Origin: a virus | Virus record (IMG/VR): IMGVR_UViG_3300010354_000518 | Span: 1 to 26,892 of that record | DNA: 26,892 bases | Direction: 5' to 3' (one strand) | In this document: in pieces, positions 4,222 to 24,634 of the stretch | Position numbering within the stretch: the first letter of the stretch is position 1 | How the letters are laid out: each line of letters starts with the position of its first letter | Made by a program: the position numbers and the translations under genes | The notes under the pieces: generated by a model | What the model saw: only the letters and a program-made list of their open reading frames with translations | What the model was told of the DNA's origin: nothing | The model's database searches: none

Positions 4222-4377
4222 ATGATGGAACTCCGGATTTCTATCGAACTCGCGAATCAGATCATCGGCTACCTGGGCACACGCCCCTATCAGGAGGTGT
4301 GGCAGCTTATCGAGGCCATGAAGGAGGCCGCGAAGCCGCAGACCGCCGAGCTTCCTAAGGAGCAGGAGAATGGCTGA
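4222..4377 (+). CDS. Small hypothetical protein, 51 aa
   Basis: Starts with ATGATG (4222/4225) five bases after the previous stop, behind GTGAGGTGA, and ends at TGA 4375-4377. The predicted protein begins MMELRISIELANQIIGYLGT and is mostly amphipathic helix (ELANQIIGYL, EVWQLIEAMKEAAK) with a charged tail. The following gene starts inside its 3' end (8-bp overlap), which supports translational coupling. It is not recognised as a named family. Small helical proteins of this size are common between phage spike and lysis genes. Confidence 0.55.
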   Translation: MMELRISIELANQIIGYLGTRPYQEVWQLIEAMKEAAKPQTAELPKEQENG

Positions 4378-6659: not shown

Positions 6660-7906
6660 GCTACGTATCGCCATTCACCGGTGACGTCATTCAGCCGACC
6701 GATGTTAGTTATCGGGCGATTGCGCTGACGGCGAATACGACCCTGGCGTGGCCGATCAATGGCAACACCACGGGCAATTACGCTGCCCGTATCATGGACG
6801 TCACGCCGTCTACCGGGGGCCTGAGCCTCACGATGCCGCCCGCGAATCAGGTGTCGGTCGGCACCGATTCGTTGATCCAGAACCTGGGGGCCTCGTCTTT
6901 CACGGTTAGGAACAACGCCGGTGGCACGATCATCACGATCGCTGCGGGTGAGTCACAGTACCTATACCTCACGAACAATGGGTCGGTGGCCGGTACGTGG
7001 AGCGTGATCGCGTTTGGTGCCACGACCGCCGCTCCGGTCGCTTCGACTCTCGCTGGGTACGGGCTAGTTGCGATCTCGAACACGCTTAACCAAAGCCACC
7101 CAGCATCTTCGGTCTCTTCCGGCGGTACTTTCGCCGCTGCTGATCGGGCGCAGACCAAAGTGTGGTCCGGTGGTGCCGGTACGTATAACTTACCCGCTGC
7201 TGCAACGCTGGGTAATAACTGGTTCACGTTATTCAAGAATAACGGTTCCGGCTCGATAGTCGTCAGTTGCACCGGTGCCGAGAACATCGACGGTAATTCT
7301 TCCAAGACGTTCGCACCCACCGAGTCGGCTTTCATCATCTGTGATGGTACGCAGTACCTGACCGTCGGGTACGGCGTCAGTTCGCAGTTCGTCTTCTCGT
7401 CGTTCGTCAAAAGCGTCACCAGCGGGTCGTATCTGTTGACCGCGAGCGAAGTATCGAACACCATCCAAGAGTACATCGGAAGTCTGACCGGAAACGTCAC
7501 CATCGTTTACCCTCCGGTGGTGAACCTTTACGTGGTGAGTAACCAGACTACGGACAACGGATTCTCCTTGACTCTGACCACCGGGCTGGGATTCTCAGCG
7601 ATTGTTCCTCCAGGTCAGCAAGCCACGCTCGTTTGCGATGGCACGAACTTCCTGAATGCGAACACGACTCAGGCTGGTGCCAGCACAGTGAGCCTTCTGG
7701 ACGGTTCTCAGGCCACTCCGTCGCTTAACTTTGCTTCGGAGACGAGCACCGGCGTATATCGGCCTGCGGCGGGCAAGTTCGGCATCTCCGTGCTCGGTAA
7801 CAAGATCGTCGAAGTGGGTTCCGGGGGCGCGACCGTGACGGGTGCTGTGAACGCTACCGGTACCGGCACATTCACTGGTGGCATCGCTGGGGGTACCTTC
7901 TCATGA
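6656..7906 (+). CDS. Fibre-like beta-rich structural protein
   Basis: 416 aa, overlapping the adaptor stop by 4 bp (ATGA). Composition is Gly/Ser/Thr/Asn-rich with few charges. The N-terminus begins MSYVSPFTGDVIQPTDVSYR. Residues about 160-340 contain beta repeats each built around a shared idea (W/LFKNNGSGSIVV, FIICDGTQYLTVGYG, TLVCDGTNFLNANTTQ). Near the C-terminus SLLDGSQATPSLNFASETST and GVYRPAAGKFGISVLGNKIV form the GSxxxPSLxFxxxTxTGxYxP module common in tail fibre shafts. It ends GGIAGGTFS, like the ISGGTF end of the fibre at the window start. Likely a fibre or appendage attached near the tail hub; no adhesin specificity is evident. Confidence 0.65.
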   Translation: MSYVSPFTGDVIQPTDVSYRAIALTANTTLAWPINGNTTGNYAARIMDVTPSTGGLSLTMPPANQVSVGTDSLIQNLGASSFTVRNNAGGTIITIAAGESQYLYLTNNGSVAGTWSVIAFGATTAAPVASTLAGYGLVAISNTLNQSHPASSVSSGGTFAAADRAQTKVWSGGAGTYNLPAAATLGNNWFTLFKNNGSGSIVVSCTGAENIDGNSSKTFAPTESAFIICDGTQYLTVGYGVSSQFVFSSFVKSVTSGSYLLTASEVSNTIQEYIGSLTGNVTIVYPPVVNLYVVSNQTTDNGFSLTLTTGLGFSAIVPPGQQATLVCDGTNFLNANTTQAGASTVSLLDGSQATPSLNFASETSTGVYRPAAGKFGISVLGNKIVEVGSGGATVTGAVNATGTGTFTGGIAGGTFS

Positions 7907-9897: not shown

Positions 9898-15225
<5,328 letters not shown>

Positions 15226-15227
15226 TC

Positions 15228-16838
15228 ATGGCTGAGACCACCGAAGACAGCGGCTTTAGCCCGCTTTTGGCGAGGATGCTGAGGGTTGACCCGAATCAAG
15301 TCGGGTCGATCTCTCTGTCTGCGCTTGGCCGTCAAGCCATGGGCGCGGATAGCGAAGCGTATCAGAAGGCGAAGGCCGAGGTAGACGCTGCTCGCGAGGC
15401 CATGGTGGCTGCGCTCCAGAATCGTAAGGGTCGAATTGACCCCGCCATGCTGGCGCTGGCACAGGGATTTTTAGCCCCGACTCGTACTGGCTCTTTCGGT
15501 GAATCGCTTGGCTCTGCAGTCGGCGCATACCAAAAAGCCCAGTCCGGTGAGGAGGAGCGTGCTGCTAAACTCGCGCAGATGCGCTACGAACTCGCTCGTG
15601 CCGCGATGGGTGAAGAGACACAGGCCGCACAACTCGGTCTGTCGGTGGCCTCGAAATTGTCGCCTAAGCTCACCGCGTACCAGCAGCAGGTGCAATCGGA
15701 GGGTATCGACCCCCGCTCACCCGAAGGCATTGCCCGTGTCAAAGAGCTTCTCGCAGGTGACAAAGCGACGCCAGAGATGAAACTGTTCGCAGCGCAGACT
15801 GGCATTTCTTTAACTGACCCGGCGTTTGCGCCCAAATTCCGTCAGTTCGAGGAGACCAAGAACCTGCGGGATATCGCCACTCGGCTCGGTCTGGACCTCA
15901 CGAATCCCGACCAACTCGGTGTTGCCCGGATGGAAGCTCGCCGCGAGGTATTCCGCAGGGATAACCCAGAGGTCGCCAAGAAGCTGCAGCAATTCGGCGG
16001 CGATCCTCTCGATCCGAATGATCTGGCACGCGCTCGGCGCGAAATCGCGACCGACGTGGCACTGGAGCGCCAAGGGAAAGTCACCACTATTCAGAGCCAG
16101 GAAGCGCAGACGACTCGCACGAGGCAGGAGATCGATGATCACATCCGGCAAGGAAACACCCAGGCCATCGTGCAGACCGCTCGCGATGCGGGGGTACCCA
16201 TCGATCCTAAGATCAGTTTCGCAGGGCTCAACAACAGAGAGGCTGCGGCTAAGAGAACGAAAGATCAAGAAGAAGCCAATAAGTATATCAACGAGAAGAT
16301 CGCTCCGCATATCTCTGGTATCGACGATGATCTCAACGACTTGCGGCGTGCCCTCACACTGAACTCCCAGATCAGCACCGGCGTGACGTACGGTCTGCCC
16401 GTGGTGGGTGGTGCCGCGAAGGTGCTGTCGGGTGACCGTGCGAAGATCTCGGAGTTCGACTCGATCGCAGCACGTTCGGCCAAGATGAACCGCATCCCGG
16501 GCGACTCCAACGTGTCGAACGCCGATATGCGCTGGATGCAGCTTGGTACGTTCAGCAGCGACAAAGAGCCGACGACGAACGAGAATATTATCAAGTTCCA
16601 GATCGCTCAGCGCCAGCGCGACCGCGACTACAACGAGTATATGCAGCGTTACGCGGCGGTCAACGGCGCGATCACTCCGCACGCTCAATCGGAATGGCGT
16701 AAGTATCTAGAGTCTAACCCGATCACGATCACGGACCGGGAAGGGAAGATTACGCTGAATCCAAGGCGTATGACCTATCAACAATACTTTGGTATGCCTC
16801 GGGTGCGTGTTGACGCCCAGGGCCGGGAGATTCGATAA
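15228..16838 (+). CDS. Ejection/internal virion-type protein, helical
   Basis: 536 aa, preceded by GGAGGGGGCTAATC. The segment ALAQGFLAPTRTGSFGESLG (about residues 82-101), followed by an Ala/Gln/Glu-rich helix, is a signature I associate with phage internal or ejection proteins. The rest is strongly charged and helical (RARREIATDVALERQGK, KDQEEANKYINEKIAPHISG) with two repeated-looking segments, LSVASKLSPKLTAYQQQVQS and IATRLGLDLTNPDQLGVARM. The C-terminus (RRMTYQQYFGMPRVRVDAQG) precedes a TAATG junction with the next gene. No catalytic motif. Probably ejected with the DNA or part of an inner core; this is inference from context. Confidence 0.55.
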   Translation: MAETTEDSGFSPLLARMLRVDPNQVGSISLSALGRQAMGADSEAYQKAKAEVDAAREAMVAALQNRKGRIDPAMLALAQGFLAPTRTGSFGESLGSAVGAYQKAQSGEEERAAKLAQMRYELARAAMGEETQAAQLGLSVASKLSPKLTAYQQQVQSEGIDPRSPEGIARVKELLAGDKATPEMKLFAAQTGISLTDPAFAPKFRQFEETKNLRDIATRLGLDLTNPDQLGVARMEARREVFRRDNPEVAKKLQQFGGDPLDPNDLARARREIATDVALERQGKVTTIQSQEAQTTRTRQEIDDHIRQGNTQAIVQTARDAGVPIDPKISFAGLNNREAAAKRTKDQEEANKYINEKIAPHISGIDDDLNDLRRALTLNSQISTGVTYGLPVVGGAAKVLSGDRAKISEFDSIAARSAKMNRIPGDSNVSNADMRWMQLGTFSSDKEPTTNENIIKFQIAQRQRDRDYNEYMQRYAAVNGAITPHAQSEWRKYLESNPITITDREGKITLNPRRMTYQQYFGMPRVRVDAQGREIR

Positions 16839-18868
16839 TGCCTATCGAACGCGTCATCGGAGGGGTGATCTATGAATTTCCTGACGGTACTTCAGAAGCC
16901 ACAATCAGGCGATTCGAAGCCCAAAAGACTGGCAGCGCTTCTGCTCCCGCCGCAGCGCCCGCAGCTCCGGCTAGACCCCGCCCCGCGCCTTTCTCCACCG
17001 GTGCCGGTAGTCAGTTCCTGCAAGGCCTGACGTTCGGATTCTCCGACGAGGCGATTGCAGGCCTGCGCTCGGCGTTCGGGCAAGGTAACTACGAAGACCT
17101 CGTGAAGGCTGAACGCGAAGCGCTGCGTAAATACGGCGAGGAGCACCCAGTCATCGGCACGGCAGCAGAGATCACCGGCGCGCTGGCTCCGGCAATCGCG
17201 ACCGGTGGCGCGAGCCTTATTCCCGGCCTCGGACGCACCCTAGCTTCGACGGTCGGCCCTCGGGCAGCGCAATTGCTGTTGGGCACTCAACCGACCGTGG
17301 GCCGCATGGCCGGTACTGGCGCTGTTGCTGGCGGGACGACTGCTATCGGCACCACTGAAAAGCCCGCTTCCGAGTGGGGTGGCGAGGCGTTCAGGGGTGC
17401 GGTGGCCGGTGGTGCAACTGCCGGTAGCCTCGGTCTGGCCGGTAAATATATCGCCGCACCCGCCTTTGCGAAAGTCAAGCAGGCGATGGGGTTCGGCGAC
17501 TCGAACAAAGCAGCGGATATCGCGATCGCCCGTGCTCTTGAGAAAGACGGCTTGACTCCCGATCAGGCAGCGGCGCGGTTGCTTGCCGTGCAGCGGGGTG
17601 AGATGACCATCGCTGATCTGGGCGAGAACACCGCAGCACTCTTGCGCCGTGCGTCGGCAGCACCGGGCGAAGCCCGCCGTACCGCCAAAGGCGAACTTGC
17701 AGCACGCGGGGCCGAGCGTATTCCTCGAGTGTCGGACGATCTGCGCACGTTGATGTCCGGATCGAAGGATTTCTACACCGACATCCAGGACCTGATCAAG
17801 AAGCGCTCGACCGAGGCTAACGCCTTGTACGACGCCGCTTACTCGGCAGCACCGACGTTCAGTGCACAGTCGGCACCAGACATCGCTAAATTGCGCAATC
17901 TGCCGTCGTTCCAGCAAGCGATGAGGGCAGGGCAACGCCGGATGGAGGATCTGGGCCTGGATCTGGCCGACCCCAAGAACACTCTGCGCGGGCTGCACGA
18001 GACGAAGATCGCGCTCGACGACATGATCAACACGGCGATGCGGGCTGGAGAAACCAATCAGGCTGCCACGCTGATCAGCATGAAGAATCGCCTTCTCAAG
18101 GATATGGAGAACGCGTCGCCCGAGTACCGGATCGCCCGCCAGACGTTCGCCGGAGACATGGAGATGCAGACGGCGATGGAGCAGGGGCAGCGTGTCATTC
18201 AGTTGCCCGAACTCGAGATGCGAAAGGCGATCGACCGGTTCAAGAACTCGCCCAGCGAGTACGACGCATTCCGCGCTGGTATCGCCCAGTCGATGCTTGA
18301 GCGTCTGCGTGCTGCAGGCCCCGCCGCTGACCCGGCGCAGGCAATCTTCCCGCGTGGCACCGAGGATAAGCTTCGCCGCGCTTTCCGTGACGACGACGCG
18401 TTTGACGCGTTCAAGACGCGACTGGCTGAAGAACGGGCGATGCTGCAGACCGAGAAAGCCGGATTCCGTCGCACGCCTTTGGATACAGACCTGGACGCCG
18501 ATGGTTCCGGAGTTGGTGCCGCCACGAACCTGTTGGCCGGCCGTCCGTTCATGGCCGGGATGGAAGCTCTCCGGAGTAATTTCCCGAATGTCGTCGGGAT
18601 GCCTCCCCGGATCGCTGCCCCCACCGTCGAGAAGCTCCTGACCCCCGCCGCGCAAACCGACCGGGTGTTGGGCGGCATCATGCAGTCGCTGAAACAGCAG
18701 GAACAGGAACTGCTTCAGGCCACCGGGGTAACCGGTGCCGGAGCCGCCCTCGCTGGTGGTCTGGCTGGCACTCGACCGATCAAGCAGCAGTATCCGGAAG
18801 AGTCTGTCCAACAGCCCGGTATACCGCCGATGCCCCCCGGAGCCTCTCCGCTGGGCTCGATGCAGTGA
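16838..18868 (+). CDS. Ejection/internal virion-type protein
   Basis: 676 aa, last gene of the virion operon (TAATG junction). The N-terminus VIYEFPDGTSEATIRRFEAQ is a short motif shared by many phage internal virion and transglycosylase-type proteins. Residues about 45-100 (FLQGLTFGFSDEAIAGLRSA, then REALRKYGEEHPVIGTAAEI) lead to a hydrophobic Gly/Ala stretch (ALAPAIATGGASLIPGLGRT and GTGAVAGGTTAIGT) that could contact membranes. The remaining part is charged and helical (RRMEDLGLDLADPKNTLRGL). I find no lysozyme or transglycosylase catalytic motif. A role in forming the DNA translocation channel is plausible from family and place, not proven. Confidence 0.6.
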   Translation: MPIERVIGGVIYEFPDGTSEATIRRFEAQKTGSASAPAAAPAAPARPRPAPFSTGAGSQFLQGLTFGFSDEAIAGLRSAFGQGNYEDLVKAEREALRKYGEEHPVIGTAAEITGALAPAIATGGASLIPGLGRTLASTVGPRAAQLLLGTQPTVGRMAGTGAVAGGTTAIGTTEKPASEWGGEAFRGAVAGGATAGSLGLAGKYIAAPAFAKVKQAMGFGDSNKAADIAIARALEKDGLTPDQAAARLLAVQRGEMTIADLGENTAALLRRASAAPGEARRTAKGELAARGAERIPRVSDDLRTLMSGSKDFYTDIQDLIKKRSTEANALYDAAYSAAPTFSAQSAPDIAKLRNLPSFQQAMRAGQRRMEDLGLDLADPKNTLRGLHETKIALDDMINTAMRAGETNQAATLISMKNRLLKDMENASPEYRIARQTFAGDMEMQTAMEQGQRVIQLPELEMRKAIDRFKNSPSEYDAFRAGIAQSMLERLRAAGPAADPAQAIFPRGTEDKLRRAFRDDDAFDAFKTRLAEERAMLQTEKAGFRRTPLDTDLDADGSGVGAATNLLAGRPFMAGMEALRSNFPNVVGMPPRIAAPTVEKLLTPAAQTDRVLGGIMQSLKQQEQELLQATGVTGAGAALAGGLAGTRPIKQQYPEESVQQPGIPPMPPGASPLGSMQ

Positions 18869-19035: not shown

Positions 19036-19315
19036 GTTACATCGAGATGGAACGGTGATGTAACAGACCATAGGCTCAGAGCCCGCGTCGGACGCGGCTT
19101 CTGGAAGGGTGTAGCGCTGTTCCACCGTTCCATCGACTACCCCCCATATTCCGGTTTCCGAACCAGAGTCTCGCACCCCCGCGCATATGTAACAATGTAA
19201 CAGAGGGCCTGTTCTTCGATTGGGAGAGGGTGTTACATCAGGCGTTACATCATGATGGAACGATGTAACAATGTCAGGGGTTGAAGGCCTGAGCGGGGTG
19301 TGGTATGATTACATC
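19036..19315 (+). repeat. Iteron-like cluster of GATG(T/G)AAC 8-mers
   Basis: Copies in + orientation: GATGGAAC 19046 and 19254, GATGTAAC 19057 and 19262, variants TATGTAAC 19186 and AATGTAAC 19194. Copies in - orientation: GTTACATC 19036, 19232 and 19244, GTTCCATC 19127, variants GTTCCACC 19119 and ATTACATC 19308 (coordinates are first bases). The three-site unit GTTACATC-GATGGAAC-GATGTAAC occurs twice (19036-19064 with 2- and 3-base gaps; 19244-19269 with 2- and 0-base gaps). The outer sites of the first unit extend to an 11-bp perfect inverted repeat, TCTGTTACATC/GATGTAACAGA. The last copy overlaps the -10 of the primase promoter. Confidence 0.8.
19281..19309 (+). promoter_or_regulatory. 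Sigma70-type promoter for the replication module
   Basis: TTGAAG (19281-19286), a 17-base spacer and TATGAT (19304-19309) with TG at 19301-19302 as an extended -10. Transcription would begin near 19316, about 47 bases before the primase ATG. A GATGTAAC-type half-site (ATTACATC 19308-19315) overlaps the -10, and two full sites end at 19269, just upstream of the -35, so a repeat-binding protein could control this promoter. Confidence 0.7.
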
Positions 19316-19362: not shown

Positions 19363-20916
19363 ATGACCAGTCTGGTAGAAGACTTCGCAGGCCTGTTCGC
19401 GGGCAATCTCCGTTCCTACGGTGAGTGGGATCCCAGCACCGGGAATATGTCCACCATCAAAGCCGAGGTGCCGCTTGCGGCGTACGAGGCGCACATCGAG
19501 GGCCGGATGGGTCTCGGCATCGTCCCGATCACGGACGGCGACACGTGCGCGTTCGGTGCCATCGACATTGACAAGCATGACACGCCCGAGGACATCGACT
19601 TCAAGTCGCTCGCGGCAAAGATCAAGGAGTACCGGCTCCCGCTGGTAATGTGTCGTACCAAGCGTGGTGGGGCGCACCTGTACGTGTTCGGGTCGGAGTA
19701 CCTCCCGGCCAAGCAGGTGCAGCGGCTGTTGGCCTCCTGGCGCGACATGCTCAAGATCCCGTACAAGACCGAGATCTTCCCGAAGCAGGACTCGCTGGTG
19801 ACCAGCAGCGGCGAGAAGGCGCTCGGGAACTGGATCAACCTGTGTTACTTCGACGCTGCTGATTCCAAGCGGTACGCATTCGACGAGAACGGCGAGCGGA
19901 TGACGTTCGAGTTATTCGTGCAGTATGCCCAATCCAAGCGGATCAGCGCGGCAGAACTGGCCGAGTTCACGCAGCGGGAGCACCTGGAGGCACCACCCTG
20001 CGTTCAGAAGATGATCCACACCGGCGTGGAGTCCGGTGCCCGAAATGACGCCATGTACAACGTGGTGATCTATCTCAAGCGGGCGCGACCGGACTCGTTC
20101 TTCGACGACGCGATGGCGTTGAACAAGCAGATGTTCGACAAGCCGCTGCCACCGTCCGAGGCCAAGAAGGTGATCCGGTCAGCGTCCAGGCGTGATTACC
20201 TGTACAAATGCGGCGAGGAGCCCTGCAAGAGCCTGTGTGATCGTAAGGTGTGCGTCACGCGCGAGTTCGGAATCTCGATGGACGAGAAGAAGGAACTCGA
20301 CGCGCACGACTCGCTGCCGATTTTCAGCGAACTGATCGAGTACCAGTCCGAGCCTCCACGGTGGGGTATCCACGTCAACGGCCAGCTTATTAACAACATC
20401 CCGACGGTGGTGCTGCGCGACCCGGCGGCGATGGGTACGCTGATATTCGAGAAGCTCAAGGTCAACATCCCGAAGATCAGTCAGGATTCGTGGCGAAAGA
20501 GAATCCTCGACCCGCTGGTGCCGACCCTGCGTACGGTTGAGGTGCCGAAGGAGGCGAGCGCGTCGGGCGTTGTTCAGGCCAAGTTCGTCGAATTCGTGCA
20601 AAAAGCTGATCTGAGTTCGGAAGGAACGAACACCGAGGATCGCAAGGCGCTGCTACGGAACATCCCGGTGGTGCAGGTGATCAACGGCGTGCGGTGCGTG
20701 GTGTTCCGGGGCACGGCATTCTCAGAGTACCTCAAGCGTAACAAGGCCGAGGTCATGACCGGGATGGACCTGTGGACCTGTCTGCGGCGAGACTGTGGCG
20801 CGGATCACGACAAAATGCGAATCCCCGGCGGCAAAGTGATCAATGTGTGGTATGCCCCCATCACCGACGAACACGAGGTGCGAGCAGATGACCCCGAATT
20901 CCAGTCAGAGTTCTAA
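19363..20916 (+). CDS. AEP-superfamily DNA primase with Zn-binding motif
   Basis: 517 aa, ATG behind AGAGGGAAGA. The N-terminal domain shows archaeo-eukaryotic primase motifs: FGAIDIDKHD with metal-binding Asp68 and Asp70, RGGAHLYVFG with His105, and TEIFPKQ with Glu137, then a GNWINLCYF segment (residues 155-163). This most resembles the TOTE-type/phage AEP primases. Residues about 215-280 (GARNDAMYNVVIYLKRARPD, then PPSEAKKVIRSASRRDYLYK) look like a PriCT helical domain, followed by a Cys cluster C283-x4-C288-x3-C292-x4-C297, probably binding zinc. The C-terminal 210 residues are not recognised. It would make primers, possibly also longer products. It is the first gene after the repeat-rich control region and overlaps the SNF2 helicase by 29 bp. 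Confidence 0.8.
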   Translation: MTSLVEDFAGLFAGNLRSYGEWDPSTGNMSTIKAEVPLAAYEAHIEGRMGLGIVPITDGDTCAFGAIDIDKHDTPEDIDFKSLAAKIKEYRLPLVMCRTKRGGAHLYVFGSEYLPAKQVQRLLASWRDMLKIPYKTEIFPKQDSLVTSSGEKALGNWINLCYFDAADSKRYAFDENGERMTFELFVQYAQSKRISAAELAEFTQREHLEAPPCVQKMIHTGVESGARNDAMYNVVIYLKRARPDSFFDDAMALNKQMFDKPLPPSEAKKVIRSASRRDYLYKCGEEPCKSLCDRKVCVTREFGISMDEKKELDAHDSLPIFSELIEYQSEPPRWGIHVNGQLINNIPTVVLRDPAAMGTLIFEKLKVNIPKISQDSWRKRILDPLVPTLRTVEVPKEASASGVVQAKFVEFVQKADLSSEGTNTEDRKALLRNIPVVQVINGVRCVVFRGTAFSEYLKRNKAEVMTGMDLWTCLRRDCGADHDKMRIPGGKVINVWYAPITDEHEVRADDPEFQSEF

Positions 20917-22630
20917 GATCAGCATCACATATGACGCGCGCACTGGCCGTTTCATCATCGCGACTCCTCCGTGGCTTGTTGATAAGGTTCGTCAAGTTCC
21001 TAATCGTCGTTGGGATCCTCGTCGTAGAGTGTGGACGGCTCCTGCTCTTCGTGCTAACAGCGAGTACCTCCTTAATTCTTTTCCTGTGGACGTATTCAGC
21101 CCTGAAGCTCATGAGGCTGCGCGAACGTCTATGGAGCGAACTCGTGCGCGATCGGTAGCGAAATTCCCGTCGGTCTACCGGTTCAAGACGGAGCCACGCC
21201 CGTACCAATTGAAGGCACTCGATCATGCGTGGGGCAAGTCTGCGTACGCTTTCTACATGGACATGGGCACCGGCAAGACCAAGACATCACTGGACCTGTT
21301 CTGCGGGTATTACCAGGATGCCAAGGTCGAGCGGGTTCTGGTGGTGACCAAGTTCAGCACGCGAAAGAACTGGGAGCGCGAGATCGGCATCCACTGTCCG
21401 GTGGAGACCGACGTGATGATCCTGGACACTGGCAAGCCGAAGGTGTTCGATGAGTGGAACTCGAAGGTCGATGGGCGGCTGAAATTCCTGATCGTCGGCA
21501 CCGAGTCGCTTGCTGCGGGTAACGCGATCCACCTCGCTCGGAAGTTCGTGGACACGAGCATCCGGGTTGGCATGATCGTGGACGAGGCCCATATGATCAA
21601 GAATCACGGCGCGATCCGCAGTAAGAACTGCGTGAGCCTGGGCAAGTCGGCGGCGTACAAGGTCGTGATGACCGGCACCCCGGTGGCGAATGGCCCGATG
21701 GACGTGTTCATGCAGTTCGAGTTCCTCGACCCGAACATTATCGGGATCGGGGATTTCTACTCGTTCCGTAACCGTTACGCGATCATGGGCGGGTACGAAG
21801 AGAAACAGATCGTCGGGTACCAGAACCTTGAGGAGCTTATCGAGCTTATCAGTCCTTTCGTGTATCAGGTGCGCAAGTCGGAAGTCCTGACCGAACTGCC
21901 GCCGAAGGTATACGAGATTCGTGAAGTGCAGTTAACAGATGAACAAAGACGACTATATCGAGACATTGCTAAACGTGACCAGACGGTATCTGGAGATAGG
22001 GGAATCACAGTCAAAACGGTCCTCGAACGGATGCTCCGACTCCAGGAGATCAGTGGTGGAATCATCACGTACGAGAGGAATCCCGATCTGTACGATCAAT
22101 CGAAATTTGAGCATTGCCGAATCCCTGGCAAGAATCCTAAAGTAGAGGAATTGCTCGCGATCGCCGAAGAGAACGAGGTCAGCACGATTGTGTGGTGCCG
22201 GTTCCTCGAAGAGATCCACATGGTGTCGGCGGCACTCCGTGAGAAGTACGGCGACCATTCGGTCGTCGAGATTCACGGCGGCGTGAACGAGGCGCAGCGG
22301 GACTACAACGTGCAGAACCTGTTCCAGACGGGCAAAGCGCGATTCCTGGTGGGCAACGCGGCCACCGGCGGTGTGGGCCTGAACATGACGAAGGCCGAAC
22401 TCGTGGTGTACTACTCGAATTCGTTCTCTTTCACCGACCGCGAACAGTCCGAGGATCGGGCGCACCGCATTGGTCAGACCAAGAGTGTGACCTACATCGA
22501 CATCATCGCGGAAGGCACCGTGGATGGCGTGGTGGTGGAGGCGCTCAAGTCCAAGAAAGACGTGTCCGAGTTCGTCCGCACGACCATCAACGACGTAAAC
22601 GATCGCACATTCCTGGGATCGATCACGTAG
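20888..22630 (+). CDS. SNF2-family (SF2) DNA helicase/translocase
   Basis: 580 aa from ATG 20888, which has GAGG about ten bases upstream; an in-frame ATG at 20843 would lie deeper inside the primase gene and adds unconserved-looking residues. Residues 9-50 (ISITYDARTGRFIIATPPWL, then RRWDPRRRVWTAP) resemble a HARP-like module of SMARCAL1-type annealing helicases. Then: motif I MGTGKTK (126-132), DEAH box (232-235), motif III MTGTPVANGP, and motifs V-VI with GNAATGGVGLNM and QSEDRAHRIGQ (520-530), the SNF2 hallmark. It would move along dsDNA or remodel forks using ATP. Codon use changes in patches along the gene. It probably takes the place of, or assists, a replicative helicase in this module. 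Confidence 0.88.
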   Translation: MTPNSSQSSKISITYDARTGRFIIATPPWLVDKVRQVPNRRWDPRRRVWTAPALRANSEYLLNSFPVDVFSPEAHEAARTSMERTRARSVAKFPSVYRFKTEPRPYQLKALDHAWGKSAYAFYMDMGTGKTKTSLDLFCGYYQDAKVERVLVVTKFSTRKNWEREIGIHCPVETDVMILDTGKPKVFDEWNSKVDGRLKFLIVGTESLAAGNAIHLARKFVDTSIRVGMIVDEAHMIKNHGAIRSKNCVSLGKSAAYKVVMTGTPVANGPMDVFMQFEFLDPNIIGIGDFYSFRNRYAIMGGYEEKQIVGYQNLEELIELISPFVYQVRKSEVLTELPPKVYEIREVQLTDEQRRLYRDIAKRDQTVSGDRGITVKTVLERMLRLQEISGGIITYERNPDLYDQSKFEHCRIPGKNPKVEELLAIAEENEVSTIVWCRFLEEIHMVSAALREKYGDHSVVEIHGGVNEAQRDYNVQNLFQTGKARFLVGNAATGGVGLNMTKAELVVYYSNSFSFTDREQSEDRAHRIGQTKSVTYIDIIAEGTVDGVVVEALKSKKDVSEFVRTTINDVNDRTFLGSIT

Positions 22631-22664: not shown

Positions 22665-23006
22665 ATGAGCAGACCTAAAGTCTATGTCACGCACGAAGTG
22701 CCGACAGCCAATTACGCACCCGCCGAGGAATGGGGCGACGTGCAGTTCCTGTCGGTGGCTGAGATTTCGGGCGTACCTAATTCGCTGCACAATCGGAAGC
22801 TCATCGCGGCCATCCGCGACCGCATGAAGGAATTCGACCCGAAGCGCGACTTCATCGCCCCCAGCGGCTCGCCCATCATCACCGGCATCGTGTTCGCGAT
22901 CGCCCGGGAGAAGACCACCGTATTCAACGTACTGAAGTGGAATTCGCGCGACGCCGCGTACACTTGTGCTACCATTGACATTGCGGAGAATGCTCATGTC
23001 TACTGA
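22665..23006 (+). CDS. Conserved phage protein of unknown function, 113 aa
   Basis: Preceded by AGAGGAGATC. The order of blocks (KVYVTHEVPTANYAPAEEWG, DVQFLS, SLHNRKLIAAIRDRMKEFDP, RDFIAPSGSPIITGIVFAIA, TTVFNVLKWNSRDAAY) matches a small alpha/beta protein family common in phage replication regions: a YxxAxxxG start, then FDPxxDxxxxSGSP, then a core strand before WNxRDxxY. No catalytic role is known to me. It overlaps the next gene by 11 bp, so both are likely made together. Confidence 0.65.
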   Translation: MSRPKVYVTHEVPTANYAPAEEWGDVQFLSVAEISGVPNSLHNRKLIAAIRDRMKEFDPKRDFIAPSGSPIITGIVFAIAREKTTVFNVLKWNSRDAAYTCATIDIAENAHVY

Positions 23007-23427
23007 GAACGAATACAGCAAATACGACAGCATGACGTTGGTGCAGATCATCGAATCGATGAGCACCATTCAGAAGGCCAAAGAACGACTAGAGGACGAA
23101 CTGAAGCTGATCAATAAGGAATTCGACTTCCTGCGGATCACAAAGGTGCCCGCCAAGATGGAAGAGGATGGCGTAGACCGCATCACGGTAGCCGGTGTAG
23201 GGCGCGTGTCGCTCACAGCGGATATGCACGTGTCGGTGAAGGCTGACATGAAAGATAAATTCTACGAGTGGCTGCGCGATAACGGGCGCGGCGACTTGCT
23301 GCAAGAGACAGTTAACGCCTCGACGCTGAAAGCAGCGGTCAAGGGCATGTACAAGAACGGTGAAGAGATCCCGGACACGATGCTGAATGTGTCCCCTTTC
23401 ACCCGTGCCTCGATTACGAAGGCATGA
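22996..23427 (+). CDS. Conserved phage protein with coiled-coil start, 143 aa
   Basis: I choose ATG 22996 because GCGGAG stands nine bases upstream; in-frame ATGs at 22990 and 22966 lack this. Residues 8-50 form a charged helix (MTLVQIIESMSTIQKAKERL, then EDELKLINKEFDFL), followed by a beta-rich part (VDRITVAGVGRVSLTADMHV) and a KDKFYEWLRDNGRGDLLQ helix, then VNASTLKAAVKGMYKNGEE and SPFTRASITKA at the end. The V-x-G-V-G-R-V-S-L and N-A-S-T-L-K-A blocks are typical of a phage family often found near SSB and polymerase genes. Function unknown; it may act in DNA metabolism. A strong terminator-like hairpin follows. Confidence 0.65.
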   Translation: MSTENEYSKYDSMTLVQIIESMSTIQKAKERLEDELKLINKEFDFLRITKVPAKMEEDGVDRITVAGVGRVSLTADMHVSVKADMKDKFYEWLRDNGRGDLLQETVNASTLKAAVKGMYKNGEEIPDTMLNVSPFTRASITKA

Positions 23428-23442
23428 CAGAATTCGGCGAGA

Positions 23443-23476
23443 GCCGGATACCCGGCGCACGACGTGCGTCTTTTTT
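23443..23476 (+). terminator. Rho-independent terminator candidate
   Basis: Two adjacent, alternative hairpins: GCCGG (23443-23447)/CCGGC (23452-23456) with a 4-base loop, and CGCAC (23456-23460)/GTGCG (23464-23468) with loop GAC, followed after two bases by TTTTTT (23471-23476). The second with its T-tract has the form of an intrinsic terminator. It lies between the 143-aa and 249-aa genes and could reduce readthrough or switch expression. Confidence 0.65.
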
Positions 23477-23495
23477 AACCAACTGGAGCATATAA

Positions 23496-24245
23496 ATGGC
23501 AAAGACGAATCTGGCAGTCAAGGAAGCTGAACAGTTCGAACTGGTAACCAACGAGGCACCGGACTGGCTCCCGCAGGGCGTGGCACGGGGCGCGGAGAAT
23601 GTCGGCACCGACGACATGATCATCCCCCGGATCGAACTCGTGCAAGCGCTGTCCCCGGCGCGTAATAAGAAGGACGCGGCCTACATCGAGGGCGCGGAAG
23701 AGGGTATGCTCTTCAATAACGTCACGCGCGAACTCTATGGTGAGAACGTGACGGTGATTCCGGTGTATTACACCAAGCAATTCCTGATCTGGAAGGACCG
23801 CAAGCAGGGTGGTGGCGGCAGCAACGGGTTCCGTGGCGCATTCGCGACGCGCGAACTGGCTGAAGCCGAGATCGCCAAGCTCGGCGAGGAAGGCCTGGAG
23901 GCTACCGACACGGCTCAACACTTCGTGCTGGTGCGCAGCGGCGAGGGCTGGACCGAGGCGGTGCTGTCGATGGCCAAGTCCAAGATGAAGGTCAGCAAGC
24001 GCTGGAATTCGCTGATTCGGATGTCGAACACGGATTCTTTCGCGCGGGCTTATAAGCTCTCCTCGGTCACCGAGACCAACGCGCGTAACGAGTCGTACTT
24101 CAATTACAACGTGACCCCGCTGGGCTACGTTGCGAAGGACGTCTACGAGCGTGCCGAGAAGCTGTACGAGACGATTCGTGCCGGTGGCGTGAAGGTCAGC
24201 AATGACTACGACTCCGAGCCTGTCGCCGCAGATAGCGAGTATTGA
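23496..24245 (+). CDS. Conserved phage replication-region protein, 249 aa
   Basis: ATG preceded by TGGAGCATATAA. The pattern DDMIIPRIELVQALSPARNK, then EGAEEGMLFNNVTRELYGEN, then VTVIPVYYTKQFLIWKDRK is typical of a widespread phage protein found beside ssDNA-binding proteins and polymerases. Residues about 95-150 include a Gly-rich loop and a charged helix, and the C-terminal part (VLSMAKSKMKVSKRWNSLIR, then YFNYNVTPLGYVAKDVYERA) is conserved. The acidic C-terminus (DYDSEPVAADSEY) recalls the tails of ssDNA-binding proteins. A ssDNA-binding or recombination-helper role is possible; I do not recognise any catalytic residues. Confidence 0.6.
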   Translation: MAKTNLAVKEAEQFELVTNEAPDWLPQGVARGAENVGTDDMIIPRIELVQALSPARNKKDAAYIEGAEEGMLFNNVTRELYGENVTVIPVYYTKQFLIWKDRKQGGGGSNGFRGAFATRELAEAEIAKLGEEGLEATDTAQHFVLVRSGEGWTEAVLSMAKSKMKVSKRWNSLIRMSNTDSFARAYKLSSVTETNARNESYFNYNVTPLGYVAKDVYERAEKLYETIRAGGVKVSNDYDSEPVAADSEY

Positions 24246-24253
24246 TGTGACCT

Positions 24254-24282
24254 GGGGCTGCGCTGAGAGGCGTGGCCCCTCT
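24254..24282 (+). promoter_or_regulatory. Two mutually exclusive short hairpins in leader
   Basis: GGGGC (24254-24258) can pair with GCCCC (24275-24279); AGAGG (24266-24270) can pair with CCTCT (24278-24282). The pairings share two bases, so only one can form. They sit just before the GGAG ribosome site of the following gene, which could make them a simple translational switch; no T-tract is present. Confidence 0.3.
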
Positions 24283-24295
24283 ACTGGAGACCGAA

Positions 24296-24634
24296 ATGGC
24301 TACCAAAAAGAGCGCGACCACCGAGCCGCACGACGATTTCAAGACGATGCCGACCACGATGCCTACCGAGGAGCTTGAGGCGAAGCCCGAGCCTATCCCG
24401 GTCGCACCCGCCCCGGCACCCGCCCCTGCGCCTACTGGGTACCGCGATTTGTCCAGCGACGAGGCTCGTCGCGTGGCGAAGGTTAAGGCAGATTTCAGCG
24501 ACCTCATCGGCTACATCAACGCGCTGCGTGACTCGGTGCACGACGCCGAAGTGCAGCGCATGTATTCCGTCGCCATCACCAACGCCGAGACTGCCAGCAT
24601 GTGGGCGGTCCGAGCCATCACGCACCGAGGCTGA
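24296..24634 (+). CDS. Acb2/Tad1-like hairpin protein, candidate anti-CBASS sponge
   Basis: 112 aa from ATG 24296, chosen because TGGAG lies seven bases upstream (an earlier in-frame ATG at 24272 falls inside the leader hairpins). Residues 1-47 are a low-complexity linker rich in Thr, Glu, Pro and Ala (VAPAPAPAPAPTG). Residues 49-109 form a two-helix unit: YRDLSSDEARRVAKVKADFS, DLIGYINALRDS, then VQRMYSVAITNAETASMWAV and RAIT. The Y-R-x-L-S-x-x-E start and the S-x-A-x-T-x-x-E-x-A-x-M-W-A-x-x-A-I end match my memory of the Acb2/Tad1 hairpin family, whose members bind cyclic oligonucleotide signals and block CBASS or Thoeris. The function here is inferred; many members of this family are uncharacterised. 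The UvrD gene follows with a 1-bp overlap (TGATG). Confidence 0.55.
   Translation: MATKKSATTEPHDDFKTMPTTMPTEELEAKPEPIPVAPAPAPAPAPTGYRDLSSDEARRVAKVKADFSDLIGYINALRDSVHDAEVQRMYSVAITNAETASMWAVRAITHRG

Follow-up and report, generated by a model that had tools for sequence, protein, structure and literature searches.

A mirror-symmetric array of short sites upstream of a phage AEP primase gene as a probable primase-binding origin or operator

ColE2 Rep, RepE/RepS, PrimHYQ, PolpTN2, and pRN1 are AEP initiator-primases that combine an AEP domain with PriCT_1 and a C-terminal HTH or winged-helix (WH) domain, and domains of this type were proposed or shown to act at the origin (PMC5862659, PMC4234260). 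Origin recognition was also proposed for C-terminal WH or HTH domains of AEP primases as such (PMC5862659). TcpK, a stand-alone conjugation protein and not a primase, has a winged-helix fold and uses its beta-wing to recognize tandem 9-mers at the oriT of pCW3 (PMC6137059). S-2L PrimPol, which is considered here together with other replication proteins of 2-aminoadenine phages, is an AEP enzyme from a PurZ/DatZ phage (PMC8342488, PMC8065100). Iteron origins of plasmids and phage satellites consist of many short non-coding sites beside the gene for a winged-helix replication protein, possibly with autoregulation of the promoter. A literature search retrieved no paper on the arrays described below and no origin or repeat array for 2-aminoadenine (Z-genome) phages.

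The locus studied here resembles each of these systems in part. It shares the many short non-coding sites and the neighboring replication gene with iteron origins, but its sites are only 7-8 bp long, occur in both orientations, and form a mirror-symmetric 12-site block. This block is present twice per genome, in inverted orientation, it lacks a clear AT-rich segment, and the genomes concerned are 2-aminoadenine genomes. With the AEP initiator-primases it has the set of protein domains in common, whereas the region between PriCT_1 and the WH domain is longer, SNF2 and UvrD helicases are separate proteins, the array is multi-site, and sequence-specific binding of the primase to it is putative. 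In contrast to S-2L, the phages of this group also carry PolA.

The window, i.e. the whole analyzed stretch of 26,892 nucleotides (positions 1 to 26,892 of the IMG/VR virus record IMGVR_UViG_3300010354_000518), contains a 494-bp gap between the end of a phrog_5880 gene (16838-18868, plus strand), the last of the upstream block, and the start of the AEP primase gene at 19363. A reading of the sequence alone had described a dense iteron-like array in this gap, with about twelve copies of GATGKAAC within 280 bp. The array proved to be real. Nine exact copies of GATGKAAC are present in the whole window, eight of them at 19036-19269 and the remaining one at 4224, whereas dinucleotide shuffling of the whole window gave a mean of 1.5 and a maximum of 6. 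Not more than two exact copies per 280 bp were found in any of 300 Markov-1 simulations, so that the observed clustering of eight was never reached. Three further copies with one mismatch each (19119, 19186, and 19194) bring the total to 11 sites. The supposed twelfth site (ATTACATC, 19308-19315) does share positions with the -10 hexamer TATGAT of the primase promoter, as had been noticed, but it was not found in relatives, and array 1 thus ends at 19269.

Array 1 (19036-19269) comprises 11 GTTMCAY/RTGKAAC elements in four subclusters, A to D, which were delimited by site search and the positions of which are kept in relatives. Subcluster A (19036-19064) consists of GTTACATC, GATGGAAC, and GATGTAAC and is flanked by the perfect 11-bp inverted repeat (19033-19043/19057-19067) that the earlier reading had pointed out. 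In the window, the first plus-oriented site of the relatives, located 8 bp upstream, has been lost from this subcluster. Subcluster B (19119-19134, minus strand) contains GTTCCACC and GTTCCATC in tandem, 8 bp apart, and subcluster C (19186-19201, plus strand), its mirror image, contains TATGTAAC and AATGTAAC with the same 8-bp spacing. Subcluster D (19232-19269), with GTTACATC, GTTACATC, GATGGAAC, and GATGTAAC, is the mirror image of A. A three-site composite is indeed present twice, at 19036-19064 and 19244-19269, and the spacers of the two occurrences differ. Between A and B lies a GC-rich dyad, CAGAGCCCGCGTC-G-GACGCGGCTTCTG (19077-19103). Similar dyads were recognized by eye in the arrays of relatives and might form a hairpin or constitute another protein-binding site; an Rfam scan of the window gave no match. 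As a separate observation, the array region of distant members contains a perfect 20-bp palindrome, CTGTCGCAAGCTTGCGACAG, about 267 bp (L131) and 219 bp (L123) upstream of the primase gene, and related TGTCG/CGACA dyads occur in other arrays.

Relatives were collected by a primase-based search (28 viral contigs) and a wider search (78 loci); an exact 16-mer search of viral contigs gave 14 loci, which did not enter the comparison. All close relatives, with 75-90% primase identity, possess the array, and its distances from the primase ATG hardly vary. The motif differs between groups of relatives: it is GTTMCA in the close relatives, TGTATCCG in one group at 70% primase identity with GTTCCAT in a sister group, and CTATCAC at 46%. 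At loci with only about 30% primase identity, no array was detected in the 430 bp upstream of the primase gene. Because the array is kept at fixed positions upstream of AEP primases and the element is rare elsewhere in the genome, neither of the first two outcomes that the sequence-only reading had set against itself, lack of conservation in relatives and chance frequency in the rest of the genome, was observed.

According to pattern searches, each of 12 near-complete relatives (46.7-59 kb) has exactly two dense arrays, which are separated by 19-22 kb, and one of these genomes has an additional loose three-site cluster. Array 1 precedes the AEP primase gene, and array 2 precedes the genes for the small and large terminase subunits. 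The window contig ends before the expected position of array 2, which is known from relatives; the closest of these (contig of L004, 90% primase identity) has two A-rich arrays. When six genomes were compared site by site, array 1 followed the scheme +8+11-11-62+8+61-8-44+11+11-8- (orientation and distance to the next site) in five, and in the same five the inverted array 2 had the spacing of array 1 except for 64 instead of 62. The sixth genome (G008) kept the twin pattern only partly. A/D and B/C are mirror-image pairs in the arrays compared, and parts of the two arrays of G003 match at 82-93% on opposite strands. The layout of an origin or multi-site operator that had been proposed from the window alone survives, and the second, inverted array extends it beyond what could be seen there. 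On the outer side of array 2, contig L226 carries a small gene (12328-12762; phrog_2165, labeled DNA helicase) that by eye is VRR-NUC nuclease-like.

The placement of array 2 invites two other explanations. In the window clade it adjoins the small terminase subunit gene and might be a pac site read by the small terminase, with array 1 as a relic or decoy copy. Array 1, however, is not inferior to array 2 in conservation or order, and about 20 kb separate it from the terminase genes. We consider a pac site highly improbable. Alternatively, both arrays may be transcriptional control regions. In this case, a phage regulator distinct from the primase would bind them and switch two operons, that for replication and the late/terminase one, and replication would start elsewhere. 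The arrays do stand at the starts of both gene blocks, array 1 lies just upstream of a promoter present in many relatives, and four relatives carry two additional sites beyond array 2, close to where the following gene begins. Against this, no regulator gene adjoins either array among the annotated proteins, about 2.2 kb separate array 2 of PMBT28 from the small terminase gene downstream of it, and the alignment column that perfectly follows the A/C letter lies in the primase wing (see below). A dedicated repressor or activator gene was not detected among the window proteins scanned or the array-2 neighbors of G003, and the proteins scanned in the window and in relatives gave no match to ParA/ParB. 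We rate control by such a regulator as rather unlikely, though it is the alternative to be taken most seriously.

The phages were assigned to the 2-aminoadenine group via relatives, as the window ends before the genome part expected to carry the aminoadenine genes. Relative G003 encodes PurZ, a MazZ-like protein, and DatZ, i.e. the 2-aminoadenine pathway, and one member of the TGTATCCG group also encodes PurZ. Several cultured cousins with 40-45% primase identity are likewise annotated with the aminoadenine pathway, and SH-Ab 15497 has been named as a 2-aminoadenine phage (PMC8342488). The PurZ proteins of the TGTATCCG-motif phages G015, G016, and G017 (e.g. L179, about 1064-2086) are 73-84% identical among themselves and only about 40% identical to PurZ of other phages, despite primases about 70% identical to that of the window.

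Cultured cousins, including SH-Ab 15497, PMBT28, and Kokobel2, possess two arrays each with other motifs: GGTTGC in SH-Ab 15497, GGTTAC in Bhz20, CGTTCCA in PMBT28 and K21lambda1, GTTCCAT in Kokobel2, and GTTACC, in fewer copies, in JeffCo. Across the phage groups, the motifs are GTTCCAT, A-rich GTTMCAT, TGTATCCG, CTATCAC, CGTTCCA, GGTTGC, and GGTTAC, and within each genome examined both arrays carry the same motif. Sharing within a genome combined with divergence between genomes points to one trans-acting factor that reads both arrays and co-evolves with its sites, as far as comparison of genomes can tell. A host protein could also be imagined, with motif differences reflecting host differences, since motifs differ between phages of different host genera. 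Phages of Acinetobacter baumannii, however, differ among themselves (GGTTGC versus GGTT[A/C/T]C). As phages of one host species carry different motifs, we give very little credence to a host factor.

The AEP primase itself (19363-20916, plus strand; 517 amino acids) contains an AEP-TOTE domain. The AEP catalytic domain was recognized by PF22548 (5e-12) and PriCT_1 by PF08708 above the cut-off at residues 221-279. The AlphaFold model of the whole primase had a pLDDT of 87.8. Its N-terminal part matched the fold of CAPP Prim-Pol (7nqf, E 1.4e-12), and the AEP domain matched S-2L PrimPol (6zp9, E 3e-4). The C-terminal 218 residues were also modeled alone (pLDDT 87.3, pTM 0.68), and both models showed the helix-helix-hairpin order of a winged helix. 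Residues ~399-508 (codons 20557-20886, plus strand) are accordingly a predicted winged helix on the grounds of structure models, fold comparison, and covariation. Foldseek with the model of the C-terminal 218 residues yielded no significant match. With VIA-align, the best match was TcpK (5vfx; Z 7.2, 91 residues, rmsd 3.5), followed by SaPI Rep (to the other half of the model), the C-terminal domain of SCCmec Cch, PadR regulators, and ORC winged helices. The matches were largely winged-helix proteins with Z of 4-7, scores that can indicate a common arrangement only, and the middling Z for TcpK is no proof of common descent. TcpK is nevertheless an apt comparison because this winged helix of similar size reads its tandem 9-mers with the beta-wing (PMC6137059), and the covarying residue of the primase, residue 492 at the start of the second strand of the modeled wing, sits in the corresponding element.

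This residue emerged when alignment columns of 44 close primases were compared with the array letter, six phages having A-rich arrays and 38 C-only arrays. Residue 492 (codon 20836-20838, plus strand; V in the window) was V in all six A-rich-array phages and T or P in all 38 C-only phages. No other column separated the two groups perfectly in the primase, the SNF2 helicase, gp32, gp33, or gp34, five proteins for which all or five of the six A-type rows were present in the alignment. Separating columns were also seen in UvrD and SSB, but with only three A-type rows. In a tree built without the wing columns, the A-type phages fell into three lineages; an independent-pairs test of letter against wing comprised only three pairs, too few for significance alone. 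The perfect tracking of A versus C by the primase wing, and not by SNF2, gp32, gp33, or gp34, also argues against the separate transcriptional regulator considered above. The alternation of T and G in the sites, which had been suspected to mark two affinity classes, turned out to be letter usage per phage that tracks the wing residue. A positional rule for it was not supported, even if the letters coincide at 7 of 11 positions between two independent A-rich lineages.

Further pairs of motif and wing were found outside this comparison. In the TGTATCCG phages, the most telling change concerns the residue that precedes the wing position: it is Y in these phages but H in the GTTCCAT sister group, and otherwise H or K. 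The primases of SH-Ab 15497 and pB23 are identical except for 16 of 529 residues. One of these is S504A in the same wing hairpin, and both arrays read GGTTGC in the former phage versus GGTT[A/T]C in the latter; the alignment of S504 relative to V492 varies by one residue depending on where gaps are placed. Separating columns in this Acinetobacter comparison were found in SNF2 and gp32 as well. The pair alone is therefore not specific to the primase; what points to the primase is that the position coincides. Exceptions to a one-residue rule are JeffCo/Barton (wing NKSSV with TGTTACC) and Kokobel2 (NKSAV with GGTTCCAT). Prospective tests were attempted from both sides. A DNA pattern designed for V492 primases retrieved one new primase (L202), the contig of which stops before the array, and A-rich D clusters retrieved many new array-2 fragments, but on contigs that lacked a primase gene.

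On these sequence comparisons, the primase is the best candidate for the array reader. The small proteins at 22665-24245, which the sequence-only reading had put forward beside the primase as possible binders, fall behind it, because none of their columns perfectly separates A-rich from C-only phages. This holds also for the gp32-like protein (113 amino acids), the foremost candidate among small co-conserved proteins. It is present in the array-bearing phages compared, and columns that distinguish TGTATCCG from GTTMCA phages, among them R/Q/K44 to V, are densest in it, but it offers no perfect A-rich versus C-only column although the array letter changed in three lineages. Array reading by such a protein appears improbable.

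The surroundings of array 1 fit a role of the primase at this site. A sigma-70-like promoter of the primase operon, TTGAAG-17-TATGAT (19281-19309, plus strand), is predicted just downstream of subcluster D, its -35 hexamer beginning 12 bp past the last array site. A TTGNNN-17-TATAAT-like promoter about 82 bp before the primase ATG (-79 to -84) occurred in many relatives scanned. Downstream of the primase gene follow an ORF for an SNF2-type helicase co-conserved with the primase (20843-22630, plus strand; its true start is probably downstream) and genes for Pam3 gp32/gp33/gp34-like proteins (22665-24245, plus strand), which are kept in all array-bearing phages compared. Common to these phages are the primase, the SNF2 helicase, the gp32/33/34-like proteins, UvrD, SSB, PolA, and the aminoadenine genes. 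Inside the replication operon, 24272-24634 encodes a protein with an Acb2/Tad1 hairpin domain (PF24729), possibly a counter-defense sponge.

With moderate confidence, we interpret the array as a region in which the AEP primase encoded by the phage itself would bind at many sites, and as a probable origin or operator. Short non-coding repeats lie beside a replication-initiation gene, and their regular spacing is kept between relatives. The primase-helicase-polymerase operon, the ordered array of many sites, the probable reading by the primase, and the published proposals for WH/HTH domains together make an origin the best reading of array 1. Many origins are AT-rich. The GC content of the intergenic region is 0.54 versus about 0.59-0.63 in overlapping 1-kb windows, which is slightly lower and without a marked AT-rich block. 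Of 12 relatives, six had the minimum of the detrended GC skew no more than about 2 kb away from array 1, and cultured phages showed no consistent pattern.

For primase binding, origin activity, autoregulation, and the part of array 2, we infer the following course. The C-terminal winged helix of the primase would read the 7-8-bp GTTMCAY sites with its beta-wing, and several primase copies would assemble on the mirror-symmetric array, bringing the AEP/PriCT part there. Replication would then start at the array with the neighboring SNF2 and UvrD helicases, SSB, and PolA. As the predicted promoter follows right after subcluster D, autoregulation is likely; occupancy of array 1 by the primase would probably also regulate the primase promoter. 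For array 2, either a second origin or a switch that couples late-gene transcription to replication is conceivable. We suggest tentatively, as a possibility that we hold less firmly, that these twin inverted mirror-symmetric arrays are the first recognizable origins of 2-aminoadenine genomes, served by an AEP primase that shifts its preference by single wing substitutions. If the arrays are origins, recognition and opening of a Z-genome would be directly testable in the cultured phages SH-Ab 15497, DMU1, pB23, and PMBT28, and the pairs of letter and wing found in nature would amount to a specificity code for an AEP primase that is ready for use. For a phage of such size, twin inverted arrays are an unusual layout.

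Arrays of GTT[A/C]CA were also encountered outside this phage group. In Bacteroidetes-type phages, a search for A-rich clusters revealed VapE/VirE-type helicase genes that are immediately followed by GTTACAT arrays. The motifs are GGTTACAC in Flavobacterium phage FPSV-S1, TTGTTCCA in pippi8-1, and GTTACAT in L221, L231, and L233; Cellulophaga phi17:1 did not share the motif. Arrays located 3' of VapE/VirE-type genes in Flavobacterium-type phages span 1970-2205 in L221, 2955-3300 in L231, 2340-2600 in L235, and 2409-2720 in L236. Their core and the alternation of A and C between phages are the same as in the arrays of the window group, and VRR-NUC genes flank them as well. It is possible that an origin code is shared by, or convergent across, two initiator classes, AEP primases and VapE/VirE-type proteins. 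Common ancestry of the primase winged helix and the VapE C-termini is not claimed, since hhalign aligned the wing regions with a probability of only 0.2-0.3%. Finally, a 65.9-kb viral contig (L228), in which no match to the window primase or PurZ was detected, carries an eight-copy GTTACATC array at 6934-7281 beside a ParB-like/methyltransferase-type gene.
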